DNA of 64,000 nucleotides from contig NZ_JAAORD010000001.1 in NCBI RefSeq assembly GCF_017696205.1, positions 930,001-994,000 on the forward strand, read 5' to 3'. The position numbers were made by a program, and so were the translations under genes. Shown piece by piece: positions 39,937 through 47,133 of the stretch. The notes under the pieces are model-generated. The model was not told where the DNA came from. It did not search any database and saw only the letters and a list, made by a program, of their open reading frames with translations. The DNA comes from Prochlorococcus marinus XMU1402. Its GTDB lineage: Bacteria; Cyanobacteriota; Cyanobacteriia; PCC-6307; Cyanobiaceae. Position 1 is the stretch's first letter; each line of letters starts with the position of its first letter.

Positions 39937-40722
39937 TTATTTACGAAGTTTAGGAATCAAAAGAGATGCGACACAAATAACACTAATTGCAGGTCCAGGC
40001 GACAAATTAAAGACTATAGAGAGAATAAAGCCCAGAAGTGAGATACATAATCCAAAAAATGAAGACCTCATCATTGCAATTCTTAAACTATGAGCCTTAT
40101 TTAGCCCTAACAGTGTTGGGGTAGAAAGAAGAGCAATAACAAGAATTACTCCCACTGCTGACATTGAACTAACAATTACTAATGCCGTTGTAAAACTCAA
40201 AGCAAGATTTAATAAAGATACGTTTATACCACTCGCGGATGCACCTTCTGGATCTAATCCAACATAAACAACCTTTTCATATCCAAAAGTCATTAAAAGT
40301 ATAAATACTAAAAAAGCAATTAATGTTCTAAGTAAATCTCCAAAATTTGCTGTCAATAAATCGCCAAATAATACTGCCTCCAAATCAATCCTTATTCCGA
40401 GTAGAGGGATTATAAGGACACCAAACCCAAGCATTCCAGCAAGAATAGTATTCATAACTGCTTCATAATTTTCACTTTTTCTATTAGTTAAACTTTCCGC
40501 AATTACTGAGCCCAGAAGACCACTTATAACACCACCAATTGAAGGGTGAATTCCAAGTGCTAATGCGAGAGCAAGTCCAGGCAACACACAATGAGAGATT
40601 AAATTAACTTGTAATAATCTCTTATGAGTGATTAATACAGTTCCCATAGCTGGGCATAAAATCCCAGAGAATATAGTTATTATTAATGGAACCAGCCACC
40701 AGTTGTTATTAATAAAAGACAT
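39937..40722 (-). CDS. znuB: Zinc ABC transporter permease
   Basis: A 261-residue metal-type ABC permease with about eight membrane segments. ILCPAMGTVLITHKRLLQVN near the N-terminus, LIS-HC-VLPGLALA (LISHCVLPGLALALALG) and the coupling-loop sequence GLDPEGASASGINVSLLNLA are typical of the ZnuB/MntB family. With znuC and znuA it forms the high-affinity zinc importer. It is separated from znuC by the opposite-strand regulator gene. Confidence 0.92.
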   Translation of the reverse strand: MSFINNNWWLVPLIITIFSGILCPAMGTVLITHKRLLQVNLISHCVLPGLALALALGIHPSIGGVISGLLGSVIAESLTNRKSENYEAVMNTILAGMLGFGVLIIPLLGIRIDLEAVLFGDLLTANFGDLLRTLIAFLVFILLMTFGYEKVVYVGLDPEGASASGINVSLLNLALSFTTALVIVSSMSAVGVILVIALLSTPTLLGLNKAHSLRIAMMRSSFFGLCISLLGFILSIVFNLSPGPAISVICVASLLIPKLRK

Positions 40723-40778
40723 TATTCGAAAGATTCGGTATGATCAAAAATACGAGGCAAAAAAAGATTTTGGAAACA

Positions 40779-41174
40779 ATGGTAACTAAGTCTGACATTA
40801 CCAAAAGACAAGAACAACTTCTTGAAGAACTTAATAAATGCGAGGATGAATTGAGCGGTCAAGAATTGCATAGGCAGTTGATCACAAAAGGCAAATCTAT
40901 GGGGTTGACCACTGTTTATAGAAATCTGCAAATCTTGATAAAGCATGGATTAATTCGTTCTAGACATCTCCCAACAGGAGAGGTTCTTTACACTCCCGTA
41001 GACAGAGATATTCATCATTTGACCTGTGTTCAATGCGGAGAGACGTCGAAAATGGAAGGTTGTCCTGTTAAAGATATTCATGTCCCTAAAAAAAATCCAA
41101 GAAAGTTTCAACTTTTGTTTCATACACTCGAATATTTTGGCCTTTGCCAAAACTGTTATCAAGCTCAAAATTAA
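40779..41174 (+). CDS. zur: Fur-family regulator, probable Zur
   Basis: The winged-helix part SGQELHRQLITKGKSMGLTT then VYRNLQILIKHGLIRSR is the Fur-family DNA-binding motif. The metal part has HHLTCVQCGETSKM and FGLCQNCYQ, two CxxC pairs forming the structural zinc site. Position inside the znu cluster makes zinc sensing the best guess. I use ATG at 40779; ATG at 40740 would add a basic 13-residue stretch not needed for the fold and start 18 bp from znuB. Confidence 0.9.
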   Translation: MVTKSDITKRQEQLLEELNKCEDELSGQELHRQLITKGKSMGLTTVYRNLQILIKHGLIRSRHLPTGEVLYTPVDRDIHHLTCVQCGETSKMEGCPVKDIHVPKKNPRKFQLLFHTLEYFGLCQNCYQAQN

Positions 41175-41187
41175 TAAGGAACATTTT

Positions 41188-41958
41188 CTAATCACAGAAA
41201 TTATTTTCCTTTATAGAGCTTATGTTTATCGCATCTAATTTATCTTTTATTTGATCAGGACTACCAACTGCTAAAACACTTTTATCAAGAACGATTACTT
41301 GATCGTAGTTATTTAGAGACTCACCCCAATCATGGCTACTTACTAGCAAAGAAAGTCCCGCATCTGCGAGTTGACGAACAATTTTCAGGAAGTCCTCTTT
41401 TGCGGGGGGATCCAATGCCGCACAAGGTTCATCCAGAAGAAATATTTTTGCAGGGGACATAAGAGTTTTTGCTAATAGAGCTCTTTGTTGCTGTCCTCCT
41501 GAAAGAGAATCGAGTCTTCTATTAGCTAAATTAGCAATTCCTACTCTTTGCATTGTCGCTTCTAATTCACAACATTTATTAATCCAAGAATTAGGATATT
41601 CTAGAAGAGCCTTGATTTGAAAGGGGTTATTACTTCTTGATTTTGAATACTTTATTTGACCAAGAGATACCAATTTTTCAACTGTAATGGGAAACTTCCA
41701 ATTCATAGAACTTCTTTGAGGCATAAGTGCCACTAGAGCTCTAGATCTATATAAATTTTCACCGTCTATTTTTATTTCGCCTTTATCTGGAGTATTTTGT
41801 CCTTGCAATATCCTCAAAAGAGTGGATTTACCGGCACCATTTGGACCTACTAGCGCTGTTAGAGTTCCAGGTTTAATCTCAACCGATACCTTATTTAAAG
41901 CTGGCTTACTTTTTTCTGTGTATGCAAATGTTAAATTTTCAGCGACTAAAGTAGCCAT
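41188..41958 (-). CDS. znuC: Zinc ABC transporter ATP-binding subunit
   Basis: A 256-residue ABC ATPase: Walker A VGPNGAGKSTLL, Q-loop LMPQRSSMNWKFP, signature LSGGQQQRALLAKTLM, Walker B IFLLDEPCAALDP. The MNWKFPITV segment is typical of metal importers of the ZnuC/MntA group. It is transcribed divergently from znuA across a 138-bp regulatory region. The zur-type gene lies between it and znuB on the other strand. Confidence 0.93.
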   Translation of the reverse strand: MATLVAENLTFAYTEKSKPALNKVSVEIKPGTLTALVGPNGAGKSTLLRILQGQNTPDKGEIKIDGENLYRSRALVALMPQRSSMNWKFPITVEKLVSLGQIKYSKSRSNNPFQIKALLEYPNSWINKCCELEATMQRVGIANLANRRLDSLSGGQQQRALLAKTLMSPAKIFLLDEPCAALDPPAKEDFLKIVRQLADAGLSLLVSSHDWGESLNNYDQVIVLDKSVLAVGSPDQIKDKLDAINISSIKENNFCD

Positions 41959-42021: not shown

Positions 42022-42059
42022 TTCATAACATTTGATACCTTTTCTTGCCAGGTGCAATG

Positions 42060-42076
42060 AAAATGATTATCATTTT
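42060..42076. promoter_or_regulatory. Zur box upstream of znuA
   Basis: AAAATGAT-T-ATCATTTT is a perfect 8-1-8 palindrome, of the same TGAT-N-ATCA type as Fur/Zur operators, ending 20 bp before the znuA ATG. Repressor binding here would block znuA directly; the znuC start is 101 bp away. Confidence 0.75.
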
Positions 42077-42096
42077 TAAGTATTTAATAATTATTT

Positions 42097-43632
42097 ATGT
42101 CAATTTTTAAAAGACTTTTATCAAATAAAACATGTTCAAGTAAGTCAATTATTAAAAATTCCGTAATCGCTGGAACGATTATATTTTCTGGTTTTGGGCA
42201 GGATGTAATGGCTAAAGGGAAGTCATACGTAGCAGTAGAACCACTAGTTTGTGATTTAGTTAAATCAATTGCGTTGCCATCTGACGAAGTTACATGCTTA
42301 GTAGATAGAAAACAGGATGTTCATGACTTAAAGATCAATCCAAGACAAGCTCAATTACTAAATAGCGCAGACAAAGTATTCACTCTTGGCAAAGAAATGA
42401 CTCCAAGTATGAGAAATTGGGAAAGTAAAAAAAATACTGTTGTTGTAGGTGTTAGTGCAATAGACGTAGATGATCATTCTGATCATGAAGGTCACGATGA
42501 CCACTCAGACCATGACGATCATGCTGAACATTCAGCTAAGGTAGATGATCATTCTGATCATGGAGGTCATGATGATCATTCAGACCATGGTGGACATGAT
42601 GATCATGCTGAGGGTGCTTTCGAATGGGCAGGTAAATTCCAGCTTTCTAAGGGTTCATACAAATGGTCATTTGAAAAAGTCGATGGCGAATATGCAGATC
42701 CTGCAATGAAGATGGTGATTCTCAAATCTAATGATATAGAAGGGTCTGAAGATTTAGCCAAAGAATTATTAGGATCTAAAGACTCAATAAGCAGAAAAAA
42801 TGATGGAACTTTGATAGCAAGTAATAAAGCTTTTGTTCTTAACTTCGATCAAAGAAAAGAAAGTACTGTTTTTAACGTGGATATCAAAGAAGATGGTGAA
42901 TATATATTTTTTACTGAACACATGCCTTTTGAGTTTGAAGCAACTCAACACTTTTTTAAAGACGTTTCAAATAGTGATGTAGAACCAATAGCACAAGTTC
43001 CAGACGAAGGAGAGGGGCATCATCATCATCATGACCATGGAGGTCTAGATCCACATGTATGGCATGATCCACATAACATCATAAAAATGGGAGATCTTAT
43101 AAGCAAAAGTTTAAAGAAAGATATTTCAGTTTTTAATAGAGGTGACAGAAAACTAATTAATGAAAGATTCGAAAAAGCTGATTCTCTCTTAGAAGGCTTA
43201 GATAGTTGGATCGTCGAACAAGTAAGCTCTATTCCTGAGGAAAACAGAGTAATTGTCTCTAAACACAAAGCAATGGAATACTACGGGGATGCATTTGGTT
43301 TTGAAACCATTAGTTTACTTGACTTTCTTGGAGACTCCTCAAGCTTAAGGCCAGACAACATAAGTTCTACTTTAAAAATGTTAGATGAAGAGAAAGTTCA
43401 GGCAATATTTCCTGAACAAATTCCAGCATCTAAGTTATTAAGGAACTTAAGTAGACAAAGTTCAGTTCCTTTAGCTTCTAATCAAATATTCGTTGATGGA
43501 TTGATGATGGATGGTAATACCGTTTCAGTAGCCGTACACAACACTTGTACAATTGTTGATTCATTAGGTGGAAGCTGTGATAAAGAATCTGGCTCCAATC
43601 TTGAGTCTGAATGGTACAAACTTTCAGATTAA
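42097..43632 (+). CDS. znuA: Zinc-binding protein of the Znu transporter with His-rich loop and extra domain
   Basis: The 511-residue protein is much longer than usual ZnuA (about 300). Residues 20-39 form a signal sequence. The substrate-binding fold begins YVAVEPLVCDLVKSIA with a ligand His in QDVHDLK. Residues 125-170 are a His/Asp repeat (units like DDHSDHGGH). Residues 174-300 are an inserted domain starting AFEWAGKF, with FFTEHMPFEFE near its end. A second His run (GHHHHHDHGG) leads to the canonical LDPHVWHDPHN. The shared inserted domain also occurs in the neighbouring GTPase. Confidence 0.93.
   Translation: MSIFKRLLSNKTCSSKSIIKNSVIAGTIIFSGFGQDVMAKGKSYVAVEPLVCDLVKSIALPSDEVTCLVDRKQDVHDLKINPRQAQLLNSADKVFTLGKEMTPSMRNWESKKNTVVVGVSAIDVDDHSDHEGHDDHSDHDDHAEHSAKVDDHSDHGGHDDHSDHGGHDDHAEGAFEWAGKFQLSKGSYKWSFEKVDGEYADPAMKMVILKSNDIEGSEDLAKELLGSKDSISRKNDGTLIASNKAFVLNFDQRKESTVFNVDIKEDGEYIFFTEHMPFEFEATQHFFKDVSNSDVEPIAQVPDEGEGHHHHHDHGGLDPHVWHDPHNIIKMGDLISKSLKKDISVFNRGDRKLINERFEKADSLLEGLDSWIVEQVSSIPEENRVIVSKHKAMEYYGDAFGFETISLLDFLGDSSSLRPDNISSTLKMLDEEKVQAIFPEQIPASKLLRNLSRQSSVPLASNQIFVDGLMMDGNTVSVAVHNTCTIVDSLGGSCDKESGSNLESEWYKLSD
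42469..42606 (+). repeat. His/Asp-rich coding repeat in znuA
   Basis: A degenerate tandem array encoding residues 125-170, built from GATGATCAT-type units (Asp-Asp-His, Ser-Asp-His, Gly-Gly-His). Such loops in ZnuA are thought to collect or sense zinc. Copy number is likely to vary between strains. Confidence 0.85.
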
Positions 43633-43709
43633 ATTTTTCTAATAAAAACGGTTTTCATTTCTTATGATTACTATTATTAAACTATTGTTTATTTGGTAAA
43701 AATCATTAA

Positions 43710-45065
43710 ATGAGCATCAAAGATAAAGTTCCAGTTACTATTCTCACTGGATTTCTAGGTTCAGGGAAAACTACTTTACTTAATAGAATACTAAGTGAAG
43801 AGCACGGGAAAAGAATAGCCGTAATTGAGAATGAATACGGTGAAGTAGGGATAGATCAAGGGCTCGTAATAAATGCCGATGAAGAAGTGTTTGAGATGTC
43901 AAACGGGTGCATTTGTTGTACTGTTCGCGGTGATTTAATAAGAGTCCTTGGCAACCTTATGAAAAGAAGAGATAAGTTTGACTATGTTTTAGTAGAAACG
44001 ACCGGATTAGCAGATCCTGGGCCAGTCGCACAGACATTTTTCATGGATGAAGAAATTAGTTCTGAATTTACTCTTGATGGAATTGTAACTTTAGTTGATG
44101 CTGCTCATATTGATCAGCAGCTAGGAAGAAGTGATGAAAGTTCAGAACAAGTTGCGTTTGCAGATGTTCTTGTCCTTAATAAAACTGATTTAGTCTCTGA
44201 TGATGCACTAGATACTCTTGAATCGAGATTGAGAGATATGAACCGAATGACTCGAATCATTAGAGCCGAGAATGCCCAAGTACCAATCGAAACAGTCCTA
44301 AATCTAAGTGCATTTGATCTCGATCAAATCCTTAAACGCAGACCAACATTTCTTGAACCAGAATATCCTTTTGAATGGACAGGTGTTTACGACCTTGCTG
44401 CAGGTAAATATGAATTAATGCTAGAAGAAGGTCCCGATCCAGAAATGTCATTAGTAGCTTTCGCTAATCAAGGTGAGAGTGAAGAAGAACTTAAAGATGG
44501 TGCTGAATCCTGCGTAAGACTTTATGCAGAAAAAGCTAAAAGCATAGAACCTGGGAATATCATTCCATTTGGAGAACATATAAACCTTAAATTGGAGGAT
44601 AAAGGAAATAAATCATTCATATTAGATATCGAAAAAGGATCAAAGATAGGTTTATATACACAGCACACTGCTGAAGAATTCAATATGAAAATCATTAAAA
44701 GTGAAGACAATAATTCAAAAGAGATCCCATTTAATATTGAAAGATTCTGGCAAGCCGAGCACGAGCACGATGATGAAGTAACGTCCATTGCAATTGAACG
44801 ATTTGGAGATGTTGATCCAGAAAAACTTAATACTTGGTTGGGCAGACTTCTTTCTGAAAAAGGGGTGGATATATTTAGAACTAAAGGTTTCATTAGCTAC
44901 TCAGGCAACCCACAGAGAATAGTTTTCCAAGGGGTACATATGTTATTTACAGCGCAACCTGATAAGGAATGGGGTAACGAACCTCGTAGAAACCAACTTG
45001 TTTTTATAGGTAGAAATTTGGACGAGAAAGAGATGAAAGAAGGTTTTGAAAAATGCCTGATATAG
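43710..45065 (+). CDS. COG0523 GTPase (CobW-type), probable zinc metallochaperone
   Basis: The G3E GTPase core is complete: GFLGSGKTT (14-22), the metal motif CICC (67-70), ETTGLADP (96-103) and NKTD (157-160). Residues 220-335 form an insert beginning FEWTGVY, with DPEMSLVAF and LYTQHTAEEF, resembling the insert of ZnuA. AEHEHDDE (349-356) precedes the CobW C-terminal domain. Such GTPases supply zinc to client proteins under starvation, and the position after znuA supports that. It overlaps the WD40 gene by 13 bp. Confidence 0.92.
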   Translation: MSIKDKVPVTILTGFLGSGKTTLLNRILSEEHGKRIAVIENEYGEVGIDQGLVINADEEVFEMSNGCICCTVRGDLIRVLGNLMKRRDKFDYVLVETTGLADPGPVAQTFFMDEEISSEFTLDGIVTLVDAAHIDQQLGRSDESSEQVAFADVLVLNKTDLVSDDALDTLESRLRDMNRMTRIIRAENAQVPIETVLNLSAFDLDQILKRRPTFLEPEYPFEWTGVYDLAAGKYELMLEEGPDPEMSLVAFANQGESEEELKDGAESCVRLYAEKAKSIEPGNIIPFGEHINLKLEDKGNKSFILDIEKGSKIGLYTQHTAEEFNMKIIKSEDNNSKEIPFNIERFWQAEHEHDDEVTSIAIERFGDVDPEKLNTWLGRLLSEKGVDIFRTKGFISYSGNPQRIVFQGVHMLFTAQPDKEWGNEPRRNQLVFIGRNLDEKEMKEGFEKCLI

Positions 45066-46111
45066 AATCATTTAGCCCAAGAGGCATGTTCCACGAGGGA
45101 TGGACAGCTGAAGTTAATGATTATGCCATAGTTTGTGGTTGGGCTACTAAAGGAAAGTTATTCATTGTTGGGGATGTAGCAGGAGGTATTTTTGCCTTTG
45201 AAGGAGATACTGGGAAAATTATTTGGAAAAAAGAAAATACACACTCTGCTGGTCTATTAGCAATGTCCATTCATCCAGAAGGAGAGATTTTCGCAACTTC
45301 CGGTCAAGATGGAAATATTCAAATATATAATTGTCACGAAGGTAAAGTAATTAAAACTCTCGATCTTGGCAAGGCTTGGGTAGAGCATCTTAAGTGGTCA
45401 AATGATGGCTTATTTCTTGCAGCAGCTTCTTCAAAAAAAGTATATGTTTTTAATGAAATTGGTGAAGAAAAATGGGTATCAGATGATCATCCAAGCACAG
45501 TGAGTGCAATAAAATGGTCAAATAATAATGAGCTAGCTACAGCCTGCTACGGGAGAGTAACATTCTTTGACATAGTAAATAATAAAACGAATCAAAAGCT
45601 CGAGTGGCAAGGATCATTAGTCTCAATGGAATTAAGTCCTGATGGTGATATAGTCGCTTGCGGGAGTCAAGACAATTCAGTTCATTTTTGGAGAAGATCA
45701 ACCGGAATGGATGCTGAAATGACAGGATACCCAGGAAAACCTAGTCACCTTTCTTTTGACGATAGTGGAAAATTACTGGCAACTAGTGGCAGTGAAAGAA
45801 TTACAGTCTGGAGCTTTATAGGTGACGGTCCCGAGGGAACTATGCCGGGAGAGCTATGGCACCATACCGAACCTATTTCTAGCCTAGCCTTTTCAAATAA
45901 AGGCATGCTTGTAGCTTCCGGATCTAGAGATGGTTCTGTTGTCGCAAGTTTTCTAAAAAAAGACGGTAATGGTGACCCAGTTGGGGCTGCATTCGCAGGC
46001 GATTTAGTGGGTGCACTTTCGTGGAGACCTGATGATTGTGCACTAGCTGCAGTTAACGCAAAAGGTGTAGTAAATGTTTGGAAATTTAAAGTTCGTACTA
46101 ATTCTTTTTGA
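45053..46111 (+). CDS. WD40-repeat protein coupled to the zinc GTPase
   Basis: A 352-residue beta-propeller with seven to eight blades, seen as ATSGQDGNIQIYN, AAASSKKVYVFN, ATACYGRVTFFD, ACGSQDNSVHFWR, ATSGSERITVW and AASGSRDGS-like units and a final AAVNAKGVVNVWKF. There is no signal peptide, so it is probably cytosolic. The 13-bp overlap with the GTPase gene and the same zinc cluster suggest a protein-interaction partner of the GTPase; that is inference. Confidence 0.88.
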   Translation: MPDIESFSPRGMFHEGWTAEVNDYAIVCGWATKGKLFIVGDVAGGIFAFEGDTGKIIWKKENTHSAGLLAMSIHPEGEIFATSGQDGNIQIYNCHEGKVIKTLDLGKAWVEHLKWSNDGLFLAAASSKKVYVFNEIGEEKWVSDDHPSTVSAIKWSNNNELATACYGRVTFFDIVNNKTNQKLEWQGSLVSMELSPDGDIVACGSQDNSVHFWRRSTGMDAEMTGYPGKPSHLSFDDSGKLLATSGSERITVWSFIGDGPEGTMPGELWHHTEPISSLAFSNKGMLVASGSRDGSVVASFLKKDGNGDPVGAAFAGDLVGALSWRPDDCALAAVNAKGVVNVWKFKVRTNSF

Positions 46112-46857: not shown

Positions 46858-47133
46858 ATGGCTAAATATTATTGCCCATATTGCAATCCTAAATATCAAT
46901 TTCAAAAAAAATCCTCAAATGGTACTTTGATTTGTGGCTTGTGTGGAGAGGATCTTGTAAAAAAACCATTTATTAGGTTGAACCAGATAATTGCTTTAGT
47001 TGCTGCGTCATCATTACTTCTACCTTTTATATATACTTTTATTTTTTTAATTAAAAATCAAATAAACCCTCCTAATAAAAATTATCAAGCAAATAGTACT
47101 TTAATAATAATTATCAAAGAAACACTTTCATAA
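46858..47133 (+). CDS. Zinc-ribbon protein with one membrane helix (91 aa)
   Basis: Two Cys pairs (YYCPYCNPKYQ and LICGLCGEDL) make a zinc ribbon; a membrane helix follows (LNQIIALVAASSLLLPFIYT). The layout resembles the protein at 22363-22584. Function unknown. Confidence 0.6.
   Translation: MAKYYCPYCNPKYQFQKKSSNGTLICGLCGEDLVKKPFIRLNQIIALVAASSLLLPFIYTFIFLIKNQINPPNKNYQANSTLIIIIKETLS

Follow-up and report, generated by a model that had tools for sequence, protein, structure and literature searches.

The window analysed here, i.e., the whole stretch of 64,000 nucleotides (positions 930,001 to 994,000 of contig NZ_JAAORD010000001.1), derives from the 1.70 Mb genome of Prochlorococcus marinus XMU1402 and comprises a zinc gene cluster, in which two neighbouring genes, coding for the zinc-binding protein ZnuA and for a COG0523 GTPase, were found to share one additional domain. 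The order of the cluster is znuB (minus strand), a Fur-family regulator (plus), znuC (minus), znuA (plus), the COG0523 GTPase (plus) and a WD40 protein (plus), with the following features:

39937..40722, minus strand: znuB, permease of an ATP-binding cassette (ABC) transporter (open reading frame (ORF) list and synteny; named by eye and position)
40740..41174, plus strand: Fur-family regulator, probably Zur (ORF list and synteny; named by eye and position)
41188..41958, minus strand: znuC, ABC-transporter ATPase, divergent from znuA (ORF list; named by eye from sequence and place)
42059..42077, plus strand: znuC-znuA intergenic palindrome GAAAATGATTATCATTTTT, probable Zur box (19-base palindrome match)
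42097..43632, plus strand: znuA, zinc ABC-transporter substrate-binding protein of 511 amino acids with the inserted domain (PF01297, E=2.6e-42)
42475..42606, plus strand: tract rich in His and Asp, N-terminal to the ZnuA domain, at about residues 127-170 (translation)
42619..42963, plus strand: shared domain, copy 1, ZnuA residues 175-289, FEWAG...FFKD (homology searches, AlphaFold2 model)
43018..43038, plus strand: HHHHHDH tract, C-terminal to the ZnuA domain and ahead of DPHVW (translation)
43710..45065, plus strand: COG0523 (G3E) GTPase of 451 amino acids with the inserted domain (PF02492, E=2.2e-61; PF07683, E=4.1e-25)
43905..43919, plus strand: GCICC motif of the GTPase, residues 66-70 (translation)
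44370..44708, plus strand: shared domain, copy 2, GTPase residues 221-333, FEWTG...EEFNMKIIKSED, between the G domain and CobW_C
45053..46111, plus strand: WD40 beta-propeller protein (PF00400, E=1.9e-28)

The ZnuA protein possesses the motifs DVHDL (residue 74), DPHVW (residue 318) and SKHKA (residue 388), whose histidines we take to be the metal-site ligands, and the domain was found to reside in the His-rich loop just before DPHVW with His tracts on either side, whereby 14 histidines locate to residues 120-174 and 7 to residues 291-322. The GTPase was identified as a COG0523 (G3E) member by its Walker A (GFLGSGKTT), GCICC and NKXD (LNKTD) motifs together with CobW_C, and here the domain occupies the linker between the G domain and the C-terminal domain. 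This linker is short in Escherichia coli YjiA, residues 214 and 221 of which align with GTPase residues 214 and 354 (alignment E=5.2e-62). The initial annotation of the stretch had placed the domain at ZnuA residues 174-300 and GTPase residues 220-335; the location held while the bounds were refined to 175-289 and 221-333. It had further stated that standard ZnuA and CobW proteins do not have the insert, which agrees with what was found where this was looked at, i.e., in the 308-residue frame of the second ZnuA-family protein of the genome, in YjiA and in the occurrence of the domain at two places only in the genome.

The two inserts were found to be homologous domains. The ordered features noticed at the outset (FEW-x-G, Gly-x-Tyr, DPAMKMVI in ZnuA and DPEMSLVA in the GTPase, F-x2-DI, and FTEH-x3-EF or YTQH-x3-EF, respectively) are all present in the same order in both, and direct BLASTP comparison yielded 25% identity with E=5e-6 and 29.3 bits, the best of 2000 shuffles of the GTPase insert reaching 24.3 bits. 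Profile-profile comparison of 14 ZnuA inserts with 18 GTPase inserts gave a probability of 97% and E=5e-11. Each insert's profile moreover detects the other, as had been proposed as a check: the GTPase-insert profile, searched against the whole own genome up to E=10, reported itself and the ZnuA insert (E=3.4e-9) and no others, and the ZnuA-insert profile scored the GTPase insert at 22.7 bits, with 9.7 bits for the best shuffle (1948 of 2000 shuffles reported). An independent profile, for which seven copies from haloarchaea and one from Alicyclobacillus but no cyanobacterial sequences were used, was searched against all six frames of the genome up to E=10 and reported two places only, namely the GTPase insert (E=3.3e-20, 73.6 bits) and the ZnuA insert (E=1.1e-14, 56.3 bits); the best shuffles reached 6.3 and 9.1 bits, respectively (1826 and 1844 reported of 2000 each). 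The earlier claim that the same extra domain occurs in ZnuA and in the neighbouring GTPase is thus borne out.

The domain was met in none of the model libraries searched. The inserts alone matched neither a Pfam model (searched up to E=10) nor an NCBIfam model (up to E=1), Pfam describing the hosts by PF01297 for ZnuA and by PF02492 and PF07683 (cobW/CobW_C) for the GTPase; searched with the whole host proteins, library models match their other parts only. Sixteen diverse copies drew nine unrelated Pfam names from single members, with a best E of 0.013, and sequence profiles of the PDB gave nothing better than E of about 1. A weak NCBIfam ZrgA match to ZnuA (residues 86-176) lies almost wholly ahead of the domain and was set aside. 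A description of the domain was not found in the literature, as judged mostly from titles and abstract openings.

Conservation was assessed on a set of 50 complete copies, all different from one another and drawn from 45 selected loci; partial hits were excluded, as were the degraded copies at two loci (L193, L202). Six positions (E2, G12, D27, H101, E105 and F106) are invariant in all 50 copies, and W3, G5 and P28 (49 of 50 each) and M30 (46 of 50) nearly so. Among the invariant residues are E176, D201, H275, E279 and F280 in ZnuA and E222, D243, H319, E323 and F324 in the GTPase; they hence include the histidine and the Glu-Phe pair of FTEH-x3-EF singled out previously. Across 16 copies reaching from archaea to cyanobacteria twelve columns are invariant, and among 14 ZnuA copies the mean column identity amounts to 85%. 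AlphaFold2 predicted three strands, a helix and four strands in this order for both copies (predicted local distance difference test 75.7 and predicted template modelling score 0.69 for the ZnuA copy, 66.6 and 0.58 for the GTPase copy), a likeness which, as both runs used the same 32 sequences and confidence is moderate, is no independent proof of relationship. Neither of the two refuting outcomes named at the outset, differing predicted structures or a failure of profile detection, was thus observed. Foldseek matches in the PDB all had E above 0.03, and VIA-align gave Z-scores of at most 6.6 (Eph receptor); its numerous further matches included GOLD domains and sandwiches that bind carbohydrate or collagen. 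The models hence suggest a beta-sandwich of about 115 residues with one helix and no clear match in the PDB.

Within its own family (300 genomes, cut-off E<=0.1), matches to the ZnuA insert were obtained in 84 genomes and to the GTPase insert in 85. Of the former, 67 are strong matches and the other 17 a weaker match to the GTPase only. As counted from the matching rows, with some of the genomes being incomplete, both copies occur in 67 of the 85 genomes with a GTPase copy and the GTPase copy only in 18; none has the ZnuA copy only. In the phylum Cyanobacteriota 32 of 386 genomes matched, i.e., 27 of the same family, four distant ones (G300, G325, G328, G340) and G377, which was dropped as a chance match (E=0.0018), its frame resembling HlyD-type membrane-fusion proteins by eye and being missed by the wider profile. 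In plasmids, the ZnuA insert as tblastn query identified 8 records, and three other copies used in the same way identified 11 apiece, from haloarchaea, Alicyclobacillus, two Pantoea and one Paraburkholderia. The phage collection yielded zero matches to the domain and the viral contigs no confirmed relative of it. The scan of genome contigs confirmed 272 loci, the best 80 of which all belong to Prochlorococcus or uncultured Synechococcaceae, with identities of 96% or more; the evidence for a wider distribution comes from the plasmids and the Cyanobacteriota genomes.

All hosts of a recognised family are either ZnuA or COG0523 GTPases. In four haloarchaeal ZnuA frames of 512-531 residues the domain sits in the same His-rich loop, and COG0523 GTPases in which it separates the two known domains were found in Pantoea agglomerans, in Paraburkholderia (where the annotation omits the N-terminal part) and in the distant Cyanobacteriota. 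The remaining hosts likewise point to metals. Three small proteins of haloarchaea are composed of the domain, His-rich ends and a signal region in which a GCL lipobox was recognised by eye; the one of Natrinema versiforme (L197, 5872-6423) is encoded directly downstream of a urease operon, which hints at nickel in its case. A 303-residue protein of Alicyclobacillus curvatus carries the domain between hydrophobic stretches with His tracts around it; its C-terminal part shows a sub-threshold MntP match (E=0.0035), and the neighbouring genes code for regulators and cation transporters annotated as metal-related. As for the surroundings of other hosts, genes for NicO-type transporters adjoin domain-bearing GTPases in G340 (L208, 3921-4742), G325 (L207, 8248-9063) and Pantoea soli (L202, 7869-8807), and G340 also holds a His-rich frame that appears ZIP-like by eye (L208, 2872-3717). 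Upstream of znuA three haloarchaeal plasmids (L192, L193, L203) encode two COG0523 GTPases, a protein of molybdenum-cofactor type, an Fe-S scaffold protein and a cobalt-factor II methyltransferase; Haloarcula halophila has this cluster twice, its second znuA being broken near the end of the record.

The ZnuA loop was found to vary within the genus. Three genomes of the same genus (G167, G245 and G288; loci L252, L253 and L254) have an orthologous znuA at the same locus without the domain, in whose place DDH and GHSAKK (His/Asp) repeats are found, the GTPase copy being kept. Another genome (G067; L081/L022) codes for a ZnuA of 613 residues with two tandem domains, and in G078 (L072) an 872-residue frame has the domain and much of the C-terminal core doubled, which could be an assembly artefact. 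Domain-less, doubled and repeat-bearing loops taken together, the loop varies in its amount of potential metal-binding material. In a further locus (L120, 9008-14160) about 5 kb separate znuA from the GTPase gene and contain a second COG0523-like stretch (42% identity) and a 3' fragment of znuA, which suggests an insertion with duplication.

A tree of 50 domains separates the secreted-side copies, comprising both kinds of ZnuA, the archaeal lipoproteins and Alicyclobacillus, from those of the GTPases with a support of 96/86, and joins the cyanobacterial ZnuA copies to the archaeal ones at 98/86, whereby several deep copies sit on long branches. In a tree of ZnuA cores (37 rows, 24 without the domain motif, all archaeal rows domain-bearing) the domain-bearing cyanobacterial cores group with domain-less cyanobacterial ZnuA and the archaeal cores lie elsewhere; a single origin of the domain-bearing cores was rejected (p-value of the approximately unbiased test (p-AU) 0.0014). 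As far as these trees go, the domain would most likely have entered ZnuA at least twice, each time into the same His-rich loop.

Taking these findings up, we suggest, with slightly better than even confidence, that a mobile accessory domain, of which the two inserts would be ancient relatives, was repeatedly taken up by metal-homeostasis proteins, where it would catch or hold metal, here zinc, and thereby raise the local supply of its host. A putative metal site would be built around the invariant Glu, Asp, His and Glu residues. In ZnuA, where a His tract flanks it on either side within the loop, the domain would supply the binding cleft; from its linker position in the GTPase it could retain metal or a client during the enzyme's cycle, the WD40 protein acting as a steady partner, and this GTPase-cycle step is a guess. 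A zinc context is provided by znuABC, the Fur-family regulator and the Zur-like box. The wider version of this proposal is put forward tentatively and falls somewhat short of an even chance: a compartment-independent metal-handling domain of archaea and bacteria, plugged into importers, lipoproteins, membrane transporters and cytosolic GTPases, with an E/D/H/E site interchangeable with poly-His loops and serving in the GTPase, where it lies between the two known domains, as the missing part that takes in metal or a client. That one domain is used on both sides of the membrane within one zinc gene cluster, as claimed initially, was confirmed. The accompanying idea of a matched handover pair or a common docking partner was not supported, the two copies belonging to different branches; direct handover between them is unlikely because different compartments are expected and the copies occur apart, as in the 18 of 85 GTPase-only genomes and, conversely, on a Halorubrum megaplasmid, where two COG0523 GTPase genes lie upstream of znuA and the domain is present once only, in ZnuA.

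Several points weigh against the metal-holding proposal. Among the invariant E/D/H/E residues there is one His only and all four could be structural; the 50 copies came from profiles already containing the conserved residues, which favours such residues. The nearest folds (GOLD, Eph-receptor, carbohydrate- and collagen-binding sandwiches) mainly bind protein or sugar, and the absence of the ZnuA domain from three genomes of the genus means that it is dispensable there. As to history, the case for repeated insertion comes from the tree of ZnuA cores, one clade of all ZnuA copies is not rejected by the domain tree (p-AU 0.152), and transfer of the loop alone by recombination would look like a second insertion. 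Finally, an interaction module would explain equally well that the domain is used both within the cytosol and outside it. Such a module, binding a protein (WD40, permease, client enzyme or other subunit) or a surface polymer and no metal, with the invariant residues forming a binding face or the core of the fold, is the main rival and is considered rather unlikely. It would account for the closest folds and for the WD40 gene, which follows the domain-bearing GTPase gene in 26 of the 27 loci examined (the exception being a 3.8-kb contig; many of the loci are related to each other and one, of Pantoea soli, is degraded). However, the fold matches are weak and may reflect a common arrangement only, a search of five loci from haloarchaea and Alicyclobacillus (L192, L194, L195, L199, L203) returned no WD40 homologue, the secreted copies are flanked by His tracts, and the domain alternates with His/Asp repeats at the same ZnuA locus.

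The absence of the domain from ZnuA of three genomes of the genus and its doubling in others would also suit a passive spacer, i.e., a folded but inert addition which the surface loop tolerates and which has no function of its own, yet the twelve invariant columns, the high identity of the ZnuA copies and the restriction of the recognised host families to metal proteins render this improbable. Very improbable is a local duplication or gene conversion, by which one of the two genes would have obtained its insert from the other within the Prochlorococcus lineage: the genes are neighbours and their inserts 25% identical, but the split into secreted and GTPase branches argues against it, as the cyanobacterial ZnuA copies join the archaeal ones and the GTPase copies lie across the 96/86 branch (some branches being long), and copies of both kinds were found well beyond this lineage. 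A chance resemblance between short motifs, for which the low pairwise identity might speak, is countered by the profile-profile match, both own-genome profile searches and the shuffles, and was rejected with practically no probability left to it, the profile from archaea and Alicyclobacillus having found exactly both inserts. The case for an accessory domain of zinc proteins is solid as to its evolution, its function being a prediction.

Regarding the remainder of the locus, znuC adjoins znuA in related loci too. The palindrome between them ends 19 bases ahead of the znuA start and is the sole match of the window at up to 3 mismatches; with 0.28 matches expected and at least one in 25 of 100 shuffles, it is by itself weak evidence for a Zur box. 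In Synechococcus WH8102 a published Zur box occupies the same intergenic place, and the expression of genes around znuA goes up in the zur mutant (PMC9337993). The WD40 gene overlaps the end of the GTPase gene by 13 bases, and downstream of it lies a gene (46858-47133) for a small protein of 91 residues that contains two CxxC pairs and is hydrophobic in its C-terminal half.

New here is a domain family beyond Pfam and NCBIfam, extending further than the initial annotation foresaw to haloarchaea, Alicyclobacillus, Pantoea, Paraburkholderia and distant Cyanobacteriota. It links the import protein with the intracellular zinc GTPase of some of the ocean's most abundant photosynthetic cells, and provides a testable part for two questions, i.e., the role of the His-rich region of zinc-binding proteins and the way in which COG0523 GTPases acquire metal or recognise their clients. 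The exchange of domain and His/Asp repeats within one genus constitutes a ready-made natural comparison. A review described the picocyanobacterial ZnuA cluster to be almost absent from Prochlorococcus (PMC8786288); the domain-bearing ZnuA may have escaped such clustering. Hypothetical haloarchaeal lipoproteins could be annotated with the same profile.

Among known systems, the similarity in strand arrangement to GOLD and PPC-type folds (SEC14-like GOLD, Z 5.5-6.2; p24 GOLD 5azw, Z 5.4-5.6; ColG 1nqj, Z 4.9-5.0) comes without a sequence link, the values of 4.9-6.2 lying among those of many unrelated sandwiches and being derived from models of moderate confidence. The periplasmic zinc chaperone AztD is a beta-propeller (PMC6689063) and thus of a different fold. 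ZepA of Anabaena, an exoprotein of zinc uptake with an Ig-like beta-sandwich domain A and COG0523 and ZnuA gene neighbours (PMC10957091), resembles the domain-bearing ZnuA, going by its description, as a secreted zinc protein with a beta-sandwich; its motif H-X2-9-H-F/Y-H was however not seen in the shared domain. By gene context and motifs (GCICC, CobW_C, the adjoining WD40 gene and znuABC nearby) the GTPase is like subfamily 5 of COG0523, which clusters with WD40 genes and znuABC and includes most eukaryotic members, and the description of which, in the part of the source available, does not mention an inserted domain (PMC2770081); YjiA, the only solved GTPase relative at E<=1e-8, is without the insert. 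ZnuA of the Synechocystis and E. coli type (PF01297) shares the core, the DVHDL/DPHVW/SKHKA motifs and the His-rich loop, the latter being described for Synechocystis (PMC8786288), and all other cyanobacterial ZnuA sampled are among the 24 of 37 core-tree rows without the domain motif. The streptococcal ZnuA-type protein AdcA is likewise a zinc-specific substrate-binding protein with a His-rich loop and an extra folded domain, both of which aid zinc recruitment when zinc is scarce (PMC7858048). The extra domain of AdcA is ZinT-like and C-terminal, whereas that of Prochlorococcus lies inside the loop and occurs in a GTPase as well, and the ZinT model of Pfam was matched neither by the two inserts (up to E=10) nor by the 16 diverse copies (up to E=5). 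By analogy, the ZnuA copy may act as the ZinT-like domain and the His-rich loop of AdcA are thought to.

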